From Anaerolineae bacterium (GTDB lineage Bacteria > Chloroflexota > Anaerolineae > Aggregatilineales > Phototrophicaceae): DNA of 64,000 nt. Under the pieces are notes generated by a model, which saw only the letters and a program-made list of their open reading frames with translations, was not told the origin of the DNA and did no database searches. Of the stretch, positions 40,837-44,331 are shown in pieces; positions within the stretch are counted from its first letter, which is position 1; each line of letters starts with the position of its first letter. The stretch is from positions 124,001-188,000 of the forward strand of contig JALHQT010000009.1 of NCBI GenBank assembly GCA_022841825.1. The letters run 5' to 3'. A program made the translations under genes and the position numbers.

Positions 40837-42606
40837 ATGAAGACGCCAACCCACCCCCCGCATATCTCCGCCCGCGAATGGCGGCGCGCCGCCTTGTTCG
40901 CCGCGTTCGTCATCGCGCTCGTCCTGCTGCCGTATGCCCTCGGCTGGGGCGCACAGACGGAGGAGATGCGCTTCAGCGGTGCGCTGATCGCGGCGGATGA
41001 CATTCACTCCTATCTCGGCAAGATGCGCCTGGGCGCGCGCGGCATCTGGGATTTCTATCTCTTCTACACGCCAGAGCCGCACGATGCCGTGCCCGGCGTC
41101 TTCCTGCCCTATCTCGCGGCGGGGCAGCTTGTCGGGCTCTTCTATGACGACGCCGATCCCGCGCTCACGCCTGCGCTGATCATCGCCTACCATGCGATGC
41201 GCGTGCTGTTCACGCTGCTGCTGATCCTCGTGCTCTACCGCATCATCGCCCACTTCCTGCGCAGCCCCAGCCAGCGCATGACCGCGCTCATCCTCAGCAC
41301 GCTCGGCGGCGGGTTTGGCTGGCTGCTGTTGTTCGTGCCCGGCGGCGATGGGTGGCTCGGCAGCCTGCCGCCCGATCTATTCATCCCGGAAGGCTTCGGC
41401 TTTCTCATCCCGCTGGCGCTGCCGCATCTGGCGCTGGCGCGCGCACTGCTGCTGCTGGGCTTTCTCGCGCTTTTCACCGCGATCAACGGCAGCAGCGGCA
41501 GCACGAAATACGCGCTCCTCGCCGCGCTGTGCTGGGCGCTCGTCGGCATCATCGTGCCGTTCTACCTGGCGGTGATCTACTGCCTGCTGGCGGCGTGGGC
41601 AATAGGCTTGATTGTGCGGATGCGGTACGCACGGACGAGGCAGTGCGAAGCCTCCCTGTGGGACGCCTCGTCCCTACAAAGACATCGCGTCGTCCGCCAA
41701 TGGTCTTTGGCGCGCGTTTTTGCTGGTGGCGGTCAATTCGACCCCGTCATCCGGCTCATCGTCTATGGCGGCATCGCTGCGGGGCTGACGCTACCGCTCT
41801 TCGCCTATTACGCGCTGGCATTCGCGGGCAATCCGGCGTTCGCGGCATGGTCGGCGCAAAACCTGCTGCCTGCGCCGCATCCACTGCAATACCTGGTCGC
41901 GTACAGCCTGTTCATCGTCCCTGGCGCATTCGCCGTGCGCTGGGCATGGCGGCGAGGGCGGCAGCGCGGCGCGTACATTCTGCTGATCGCCTGGGCGCTT
42001 GCCGGGCTTGTGCTGGTCTATCTGCCGATCAATGTGCAGCGCCGCATGAGCGAGGCGATCATCGTGCCGCTGGCGATCCTGGCGGCGCACGGGTTGGCGC
42101 TGTTGCTGCGCAGGCACGTCCGGCGGCGGATGCGCCCACCCCTGCGCGCGGCGTTCCTGTTGATCGCCAGTCTGACAAGCGCCACGCTCCTGCTGACGAC
42201 CGTGCTGGGCGCGCGCTCGACCGCGCCGCCGCTCTTCATCCCCGGCGCGCAGATCGCCGCCTTTACCTGGCTGAATGCCAACGCGCCGCCGGACGCGCGC
42301 ATCCTGGCGTCGATGCGGACGGGCAATCTGCTACCCGCCTACACACACCTGCGCCCGTATGTCGGGCACGGTCCGGAGACGCTGGGTGCGCTGGCGAAAG
42401 CAGCGGAGACTGAGCGCTTCTATTCCGACCTGATGCGCGCCGACGAACGCGCCGCGCTGGTTGGGTCAGTCGATATGGGCTACGTCTTCTACGGCGAAAG
42501 CGAGCGCGCCCTGGCACAGAACGCAGACGCCAGCGCGCCCGCCTGGGCGGAGGCGCTGACGCTGGTTTACGACGCGGAAGGCGTCCGCATCTATCGCCTT
42601 CCGTGA
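40837..42606 (+). CDS. Polytopic membrane protein, GT-C glycosyltransferase-like
   Basis: A protein of 589 residues from MKTPTHPPHISAREW. About ten to twelve membrane helices start at WRRAALFAAFVIALVLLPYA. The first extracytoplasmic loop has GALIAADDIHSYLGKMRLGARG, with paired Asp residues (DD) and the EPH segment resembling GT-C enzymes that use polyprenyl-phosphate sugars. The terminal soluble part contains FTWLNANAPPDARILA, found in many large membrane glycosyltransferases. The family is not certain. Residues about 266-282 are encoded by a 45-bp repeat element inserted in a cytoplasmic-side loop. Confidence 0.82.
   Translation: MKTPTHPPHISAREWRRAALFAAFVIALVLLPYALGWGAQTEEMRFSGALIAADDIHSYLGKMRLGARGIWDFYLFYTPEPHDAVPGVFLPYLAAGQLVGLFYDDADPALTPALIIAYHAMRVLFTLLLILVLYRIIAHFLRSPSQRMTALILSTLGGGFGWLLLFVPGGDGWLGSLPPDLFIPEGFGFLIPLALPHLALARALLLLGFLALFTAINGSSGSTKYALLAALCWALVGIIVPFYLAVIYCLLAAWAIGLIVRMRYARTRQCEASLWDASSLQRHRVVRQWSLARVFAGGGQFDPVIRLIVYGGIAAGLTLPLFAYYALAFAGNPAFAAWSAQNLLPAPHPLQYLVAYSLFIVPGAFAVRWAWRRGRQRGAYILLIAWALAGLVLVYLPINVQRRMSEAIIVPLAILAAHGLALLLRRHVRRRMRPPLRAAFLLIASLTSATLLLTTVLGARSTAPPLFIPGAQIAAFTWLNANAPPDARILASMRTGNLLPAYTHLRPYVGHGPETLGALAKAAETERFYSDLMRADERAALVGSVDMGYVFYGESERALAQNADASAPAWAEALTLVYDAEGVRIYRLP
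41633..41677. repeat. 45-bp palindromic-end element inside the membrane-protein gene
   Basis: Same element as 13972-14016, 41 of 45 positions identical. It has the same orientation relative to transcription in both genes, but is translated in a different frame here (TRQCEASLWDASSLQ). Confidence 0.82.
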
Positions 42607-42636
42607 ACTCTCGCCAGCTTAGACGCATGGAGGGGG

Positions 42637-42842
42637 CAATCGCTTCAAAACCACAGCCACGTTTTCGCGTCGCTGGAAGCTCAAAGCTTCCAGCTAGAAC
42701 AGCAGAAAAAACCTCTGGAAGAGGTTGTAAGGCAGGGCAGTACCCTCGAATGACCGGAATTGAGAGCCGCTTCAGCGGCTTTTGGCTGATCTTGTAGCCT
42801 GAAGCTTTGAGCTTCAGGCGCGCAATGGGTTTGAAGCGATTG
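42637..42842. mobile_element. MITE-like nested-hairpin element
   Basis: The 384-bp gap 42607-42990 is largely filled by this element. Its ends form a 13-bp perfect inverted repeat, CAATCGCTTCAAA at 42637-42649 and its complement at 42830-42842. Inside are four hairpins: 42672-42694 (10-bp stem, loop CAA), 42710-42726 (6-bp stem), 42765-42780 (AGCCGC-ttca-GCGGCT followed by TTTT, terminator-like), and 42797-42819 (10-bp stem, loop TTG). The first and last hairpins are near reverse complements of each other. There is no coding sequence. It could be a non-autonomous mobile element or a structured RNA. Confidence 0.6.
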
Positions 42843-42925
42843 TCCTGGCTTGGGGGCGTTTGGCGATCACAGGGGCATCGGTCATCATCCACCTCGCGGC
42901 TTATTCCACACGAGTATAGCACGAG

Positions 42926-42990: not shown

Positions 42991-44331
42991 CTACGGGTAA
43001 TTCCGGCTCAGCATCCGCGCGTAGGGCACGCTCTCGCGCACATGTGGCAAGCCGCACAGCCACGTCACCACGCGCTCCAAGCCCAGCCCGAAGCCGCCAT
43101 GTGGCACGCTGCCATACTTGCGCAGGTCGAGATACCAGGCATACGCCTCGCGCGGGATGCCGATGGTCGAGACGCGCTGCTCGATCAGCGCCGCGTCGTG
43201 GATTCGCTCGCTGCCGCCGCAGATTTCGCCGTAGCCCTCCGGCGCGAGCAGATCGACGCTGCGGCAGACCTCCGGTCGCCCCTCCACCGGCTGCATGTAG
43301 AACGCCTTGACCGCCGTCGGATAGTGATAGACGAAGACCGGGCGGTCGAACGACTCCGCCAATGCCGTCTCGTGCGGCGAACCGAAGTCTTCGCCCCACT
43401 CGATCTTGAGCAGTTCTTTCTGCTCTGGATCGTCGGTCTTCTCGCGCAGCTCGCCCAGGCGCTTGATCGCGTCGTCGTACGAGATGCGCGCGAACGGCGC
43501 TTTGATGTTCTCCACCTTGCTGATGTCGCGCTCGATGATCTCCAGCTCCTGGCGATGCTTATCGAGCAGCCGCTCGACCGCGTAGCTGATCATCCCCTCT
43601 TCGACTTCCATCACGCCTTCCAGCGAGAGGAACGCCGCCTCCGGCTCCAGATGCCAAAACTCCTGCAAATGGCGGCGCGTCTTGCTCTTTTCCGCGCGGA
43701 AGCTGGGCGAAAAGGCATACACTTTGCCGAACGCCATCATGTTCGCCTCGTTGTAGAGCTGCCCGGTCTGCGCGAGGAACGCCGGGTCGCCGTGATAATC
43801 GATCTCGAACAGCGTCGTCGTCTCCTCGCCCGCCGCCGGGGTGATGATCGGCGTATCGACGCGCAGATAGCCGTGATCGTCCAGCCAGTCAGTCAGCGCG
43901 CGGGTGATCGTCGCGCGGATGCGCATGATCGCCCACTGGCGCTGCGAACGCAGCCAGAGATGGCGGTTGTCCATCAGGAATTCGACGCCATGCTCTTTGG
44001 GCGTGATGGGGTAATCGACCGCCATCTGCACGACCTCGACCGTTTGCGCGTCGATTTCATAGCCGACGGGCAGGCTCTTCTTCGCCTTCGGGTTCTCTTT
44101 GACGGTGCCCGTGATGATGAGCGATGATTCCTGCGTCAGCCTGCCCGCCGCCTCGAACTGCGCCGGGTCCATGCCGGGTCCATAGGCGACGCACTGGACG
44201 ATCCCGCTGCCATCGCGCACCTGGATGAATTGCAGCTTGCCCTTGTCGGTGCGGTCGTAGACCCAACCGCGCACCGTCACCACCTCGCCGACATGCGCCG
44301 CGATATCGCGGATTGAAATGGTCGTCGCCAT
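42991..44331 (-). CDS. asnS: Asparaginyl-tRNA synthetase
   Basis: A class II synthetase of 446 residues. The N-terminal OB anticodon-binding domain (about 1-110) has VTVRGWVYDRTDKGKLQFIQVRDGSG. Class II motif 2 is FRAEKSKTRRHLQEFWHLEPE and motif 3 is GGFGLGLERVVTWLCGLPHVRE. The LEPE after motif 2 and the flipping-loop region (EETTTLFEIDYHGDPAFLAQTGQLYNEA) fit AsnRS rather than AspRS. It charges tRNA-Asn directly, so the organism need not rely only on transamidation. It stands alone, flanked by repeats on one side and an MDR gene on the other. Confidence 0.93.
   Translation of the reverse strand: MATTISIRDIAAHVGEVVTVRGWVYDRTDKGKLQFIQVRDGSGIVQCVAYGPGMDPAQFEAAGRLTQESSLIITGTVKENPKAKKSLPVGYEIDAQTVEVVQMAVDYPITPKEHGVEFLMDNRHLWLRSQRQWAIMRIRATITRALTDWLDDHGYLRVDTPIITPAAGEETTTLFEIDYHGDPAFLAQTGQLYNEANMMAFGKVYAFSPSFRAEKSKTRRHLQEFWHLEPEAAFLSLEGVMEVEEGMISYAVERLLDKHRQELEIIERDISKVENIKAPFARISYDDAIKRLGELREKTDDPEQKELLKIEWGEDFGSPHETALAESFDRPVFVYHYPTAVKAFYMQPVEGRPEVCRSVDLLAPEGYGEICGGSERIHDAALIEQRVSTIGIPREAYAWYLDLRKYGSVPHGGFGLGLERVVTWLCGLPHVRESVPYARMLSRNYP

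Follow-up and report, generated by a model that had tools for sequence, protein, structure and literature searches.

The element at 42632–42847 of the window, i.e. of the whole stretch of 64,000 nucleotides of Anaerolineae bacterium DNA that we analysed, is very probably an ISAs1-family MITE whose interior is a REP dimer with the layout A-B-B'-A', the REP having been captured once and the whole being copied together thereafter. The arrangement suggests one genomic parasite that travels within another. The initial annotation had proposed a new MITE or a structured RNA. The MITE is supported, because the element is repeated, has inverted ends, shows target duplications at some copies and has its ends in common with intact ISAs1-family elements. 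A structured RNA is not needed, since no Rfam family is found at gathering score, the element reads almost alike on both strands and its hairpins follow the pattern of a DNA REP repeat located beside Y1 genes.

Extent and hairpins of the window copy

The nested-hairpin element, previously placed at 42637–42842 (206 bp), is real but longer than first noted, as the end-to-end alignment of 15 full copies gives 216 bp (42632–42847). Its outer arms do contain the perfect 13-bp inverted repeats that had been reported (CAATCGCTTCAAA at 42637–42649 and TTTGAAGCGATTG at 42830–42842), and these are part of 18-bp arms (42632–42649 and 42830–42847) with 3 mismatches in the window copy. The features are the following:

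42632–42847, no strand assigned: whole element, very probably an ISAs1-type MITE with a REP-dimer interior
42632–42649, plus strand: left terminal inverted repeat of ISAs1 type; subtype consensus CAGGGCAATCGCTTCAAA, here GGGGGCAATCGCTTCAAA, the outer two bases being altered
42672–42694, minus strand: hairpin A, inverted REP, with the tag CTAG in the window copy instead of GTAG
42710–42726, plus strand: inner hairpin B, preceded by an A run; terminator-like on the minus strand, AACCTCTTCCAGAGGTT then TTTTC
42762–42783, plus strand: inner hairpin B', containing AGCCGC-TTCA-GCGGCT-TTT, mirror of B
42794–42819, plus strand: hairpin A', REP, with the GTAG tag and then CCTGAAGCT-TTG-AGCTTCAGG, an exact match
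42830–42847, minus strand: right terminal inverted repeat, TTTGAAGCGATTGTCCTG on the plus strand

The first and last inner hairpins, 42672–42694 (loop CAA) and 42797–42819 (loop TTG), are near reverse complements, and the symmetry holds at two levels, both as initially described. Hairpin A mirrors A' and B mirrors B', so that the element is near-identical to its own reverse complement. Hairpin A' proper corresponds to 42797–42819, its GTAG tag starting at 42794. The AGCCGC-TTCA-GCGGCT unit that had been likened to a terminator is present at 42765–42780, followed by three further T (42781–42783) and not four. It is the inner hairpin B', one of two mirrored inner hairpins, and the terminator scan did not call it on the plus strand; the only call was hairpin B on the minus strand (1 found versus 0.4 ± 0.6 in shuffles). 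The A and T runs beside B and B' make both hairpins somewhat terminator-like, a property that may matter between convergent genes and is probably a by-product. The element sits between convergent ORFs, one ending at 42606 and the other, on the opposite strand, ending at 42991; the latter is presumably that of asparaginyl-tRNA synthetase. Two ORFs cross the element, of 64 aa on the plus strand and 219 aa on the minus strand, and both are presumably chance frames.

Copy number and conserved pairing

The region 42600–42880 folds at −129.9 kcal/mol, compared with −98.5 ± 5.3 kcal/mol for its shuffles (z = −5.98), none of the 200 shuffles being as low. A chance fold was ruled out by these shuffles together with the multiple copies. 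BLAST with the element returned 17 separate places at 72–100% identity in its own genome, G000, where the window is C9:124001–188000; the further matches are weaker ones, either self-complementary or short. A covariance model spans positions 1–216 at all 17 places, with at least 140 bits at 16 of them and 87 bits at the remaining one (L014). In a DNA search of 61 genomes of the taxonomic family, own genome included, partial matches were present in 4 others.

Pairs were counted on the 15 full copies (214–217 bp) aligned end to end; L014 and L016 were left out because their ends are rearranged or decayed. The consensus of the copies starts with CAGGG and ends with CCCTG. Standard pairs fill 94.4% of the 885 pair cells, as compared to 28.8–53.1% when partners are slid and 90.9% in shuffles. 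Changes on both sides of a pair occur in 33 cells versus 15.9 in shuffles, a value reached by 0 of 500. By pair, 10 of 59 carry such a change versus 7.0 (13 of 500 shuffles reach it), and further pair types number 30 versus 26.4 (20 of 500). Two of the pairs changed on both sides among copies belong to hairpin B, and some paired changes fall in the element ends, columns 13/205 being T-A in six copies and A-T in six. Because there are 17 genomic places, full-span model matches and conserved pairing, the element is not the single copy without homologues or conserved pairing that the initial annotation had set against its own proposal. Like an ISAs1-family MITE, it is short (214–217 bp), multicopy (17 places) and holds no transposase gene.

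The outer arms correspond to ISAs1 ends

The ISAs1 transposase family has a match in 24 of 98 genomes of the taxonomic family, own genome included, and is above cut-off in 21. We inspected 17 of the 29 ISAs1 loci returned. In five of these 17, both ends match the better MITE end subtype at 16–17 of 18 positions (17/18 at both ends in L111, L134, L113 and L114, 16/18 in L117). These five loci represent four different elements, L111 and L134 coming from one genome. The remaining 12 reach 11–16 at their best places, several of them with related ends, e.g. TAGGGCAATCGCATAT. Intact ISAs1-family elements of related genomes thus agree with the subtype consensus at 17 of 18 positions at each end, and the two MITE end subtypes, CGCTTCAAA and CGCATCAAA, are both present among intact ISAs1 elements. 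The transposase of L114, from the family-mate genome G005, matches NF033564 with 398 bits for a cut-off of 70, and the seven intact elements measured are 1191–1245 bp long.

No intact ISAs1 transposase gene was found in the own genome, which is 95.67% complete. It contains two ISAs1 transposase fragments, both below cut-off, one of which (C6:228151–228294) ends about 20 bp from a MITE-end match with 2 mismatches.

Target duplications

Exact 9–10 bp target repeats flank six of the seven intact ISAs1 elements tested, L113 being the one without. With one base of slack allowed, repeats of this length, exact as well, flank three of the 15 full MITE copies (L007, TCCCCTCAG; L009, CGGCTCACCC; L013, AAAAGCCAT), as opposed to none of the 210 mismatched flank pairs, and a count of three was not attained in any of 2000 shuffles. 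The search for target-site duplications that had been suggested therefore gave duplications of the length of the ISAs1 family at these three copies and none at the window copy, which is among the 12 of 15 that have no exact repeat. Over the 15 copies, the summed flanking 10-mer matches amount to 59 versus 40 ± 6 (16 of 5000 shuffles reach this value), and a looser flank score with slack gives 82 versus 70.7 ± 4.7 (72 of 5000).

The interior is a REP pair with its own distribution

The interior is a pair of inverted GTAG-tagged hairpins with two mirrored inner hairpins between them, in the layout A-B-B'-A'. Allowing up to 3 mismatches, the 26-base A' unit occurs at 19 places in the own genome versus 0 for a reversed control. 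Seventeen of these are within the MITE copies, and one of the others is situated some 165 bp upstream of a Y1 transposase gene, within a unit of the same layout. The tag and hairpin of A' are exact in 9 of the 17 MITE copies; the tag of hairpin A, i.e. the 5' REP tag, is degenerate. A search with the exact 26-base REP pattern across genome contigs, a set that may leave out the own genome, gave 0 matches.

The MITE covariance model has matches at E 0.01 or better in 27 of the 98 family genomes, own genome included, match counts being lower bounds with at most 24 candidates scored per genome; the weakest, near E 0.01, may be due to chance. One match (L165) resembles coding sequence. At 40 places outside the own genome that were read as short loci, the A-B-B'-A' layout was recognised by eye in most, with other stem sequences. 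Ends were checked at 57 distinct places outside the own genome. At 54 of them no ISAs1-type end rises above background (at most 13/18, with a score of 14 at one of 57 shuffled places); L155, L158 and L161 are the exceptions. Of the 57 places, 27 have a perfect hairpin with a GTAG tag, 13 of them on both strands, versus 0 of 57 shuffled places. The GTAG tag next to a short palindrome, typical of GTAG REP dimers, is therefore found here as well. The inner hairpins are a separate repeat with a distribution of its own, a point that the initial annotation had missed.

Link to Y1 transposase genes

The relation to Y1 genes was examined at 28 Y1 loci, of which 5 belong to the own genome and 23 to nine relatives. 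The model has a match at E 0.01 or better in eleven of the 28, and in 10 of the 28, from 6 of the 10 genomes, a match is no more than 150 bp from the Y1 domain, L291 and L300 having one on either side of it. In L088, the strong match corresponds to a MITE copy more than 1 kb away, and the unit nearest the Y1 gene reaches only E 0.011. Among the 29 ISAs1 loci, the four-hairpin model has no match at E 0.1; as the nine relatives were picked for holding model matches and the ISAs1 control was not matched by genome, this contrast between Y1 and ISAs1 loci is indicative. The unit thus occurs near Y1 (HUH) transposase genes, as GTAG REP dimers do.

Among the Y1 proteins of the own genome, four short ones, including that of an interrupted gene, all score above the IS200/IS605 cut-off of 55 bits. 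Against NF047646, the family of REP-associated transposases with a cut-off of 80 bits, three score 22.4–40.2 bits and the fourth, that of the interrupted gene, gives no match, so that none enters the family of RAYT or REPtron transposases; we therefore refer to them as Y1 or IS200-type proteins. At L090 (G000:C9:107998–108243, minus strand), a Y1 gene with an interrupted reading frame stands directly behind an A-B-B'-A' unit. At L087 (G000:C5:163101–163445, minus strand), a Y1 gene has similar four-hairpin units on both sides as judged by eye, one of which the model calls at E 0.1 or better; the locus resembles a REPtron. At L091 (G000:C2:344211–344540), in contrast to the short Y1 genes, the Y1 domain match lies in a frame of 1259 codons, and 8 of the 23 Y1 matches in relatives are in frames longer than 600 codons.

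Origin of the element

The REP unit, of the kind adjoining IS200/IS605-type Y1 genes and possibly a product of their activity, would have entered an ISAs1-derived cassette of terminal repeats once. An ISAs1 transposase acting in trans would then have mobilised this cassette in its entirety, with cuts at the CAGGG...CCCTG ends and duplications of 9–10 bp left behind, and the cassette would have spread to about 17 copies before the transposase decayed in the own genome. A single capture is inferred because the junctions between ends and core, as well as the orientation, are common to the 15 full copies. Several observations speak against the ISAs1 MITE. Exact target repeats are missing at 12 of 15 copies, and at the left end of the window copy the outer two bases have been lost. 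The own genome yielded no intact ISAs1 transposase, the MITE copies have a degenerate 5' REP tag, and the Y1 proteins are under the NCBIfam cut-off for REP-associated transposases.

The whole 216-bp unit could instead be a REP/Y1 product, its arms being part of a "TIRtron"-like palindrome mobilised by Y1 without any ISAs1. The accessible text of PMC3733652 describes Y1 genes that have long TIRs instead of REPs on their flanks, and the core unit does adjoin Y1 genes. However, intact ISAs1 elements agree with the arms at both of their ends, 54 of the 57 such units elsewhere lack these arms, and the arms are also found with other interiors. The exact 9–10 bp duplications are as in ISAs1 elements, and Y1 transposases are not, to our knowledge, expected to make target duplications; this origin is improbable. 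Less probable still is a structured RNA or a regulatory intergenic element, such as a two-way terminator serving convergent genes, retained because of its RNA fold. The strong fold, the pairs changed on both sides, the one terminator-like hairpin on the minus strand (1 versus 0.4 ± 0.6) and the convergent flanking ORFs would agree with it. Against this, the Rfam search of the window gave 0 matches at gathering score, the best match below threshold having 18 bits; the element is nearly symmetrical, and 7 of its own copies also match the model in the reverse orientation. Moreover, the copies are dispersed, some with target duplications, and the paired changes at the ends agree with subtypes of the ends also present in intact ISAs1 elements. 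The sub-threshold Rfam matches (sX6, asX4, RsmY and sR30) were taken as chance. Least probable of all, REP units would have hit the ISAs1 MITE family many times independently, with palindromes as preferred target. REP dimers within palindromes are indeed described in the part of PMC3733652 available to us (GTAG-15 in Anabaena variabilis, CGTC-1 in H. neapolitanus), but the 15 full copies are alike in their junctions and in the orientation of core to arms.

Relation to described elements

The element resembles ISAs1-family insertion sequences and their non-autonomous derivatives (type I MITEs) in its CAGGG-type ends (16–17/18) and in target duplications of 9–10 bp, and differs from them in that it has no transposase and that its interior is an unrelated REP dimer. 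In the accessible sections of PMC3733652, GTAG repeats are reported for Chloroflexi, tail-tail dimers with structured spacers are described, and Y1 genes are flanked by REPs or TIRs. With the GTAG-tagged REP dimers and BIMEs presented there, our interior has in common the GTAG-tagged palindrome, the inverted pair with tags inside (tail-tail) and the structured spacer, whereas the two fixed inner hairpins, the ISAs1 ends that enclose it in the own genome and the degenerate 5' tag set it apart. As in the group 3 REPtrons, represented by REPSm of Stenotrophomonas maltophilia (PMC8266576, seen in part), GTAG directly precedes a perfect short palindrome with a 3-nt loop and a Y1 gene adjoins such units. 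REPs of this group have a perfect 8-bp stem and 3-nt loop after GTAG, according to the same partial text, and A' is similar; the Y1 proteins here, in contrast, score as IS200/IS605, under the REP-associated NCBIfam cut-off. The nearest precedent in print, from the accessible text of PMC3733652, consists of the GTAG-15 dimers and the CGTC-1 dimers lying within longer palindromes, which likewise place a REP dimer in a dispersed palindromic host; that host is tied there to no transposon family, and here to ISAs1. A MITE tied to IS1182 is reported in the available part of PMC11578231. While REP dimers inside palindromes are thus already in print, we found no ISAs1 MITE with REPs inside it reported in the open PMC literature searched, including the accessible parts of PMC11578231, PMC3542288 and PMC9208149.

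Same ends with other interiors and spread of REP dimers

In the own genome, the same ends without the REP core are present at L064 (146 bp), L065 (268 bp, with an exact 10-bp target repeat) and L066 (195 bp), and at L067 one end only is recognised. Among these end-bearing places (L064–L067), none was an empty MITE with the same arms. The interior of L065 (G000:C2:48898–49165) and L066 (G000:C3:351503–351697) is a different long palindrome, of the CCCCTCCC...GGGAGGGG type. L158 (G088:C35:8266–8457) and L161 (G089:C16:2522–2764), from another genus, had been considered as further composites and turned out, on reading, to be ISAs1-type MITEs with other interiors; both have perfect 18-bp ends on the two sides, L161 carries an exact 10-bp target repeat, and the interior of L158 is a GTAGGGGCG palindrome.

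The usual view is that REP repeats need their own Y1 transposase to spread. We tentatively propose that REP dimers can also spread by hitchhiking inside an ISAs1-derived MITE, and that the ISAs1 MITEs of these bacteria repeatedly take up palindromic intergenic repeats. The latter is suggested by the interiors of L065, L066 and L158, all palindromic when read by eye. If this proposal is right, lodged REP dimers are copied by a DDE transposase of another superfamily, and the repeated uptake would account for the nesting of REP dimers within palindromes, so far reported without explanation. An amplification of about 17-fold for a REP dimer enclosed by the ends of another transposon family would represent a second spreading route, in which case REP counts per genome need not reflect Y1 activity. 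The element also serves as a worked example in which the host MITE is told apart from its cargo repeat.

At L155/L078 (G051:C6:171353–171531), in another genus, a left end matching at 17/18 is followed by a REP-like core and the right end is unrecognisable; this locus is possibly a decayed composite.
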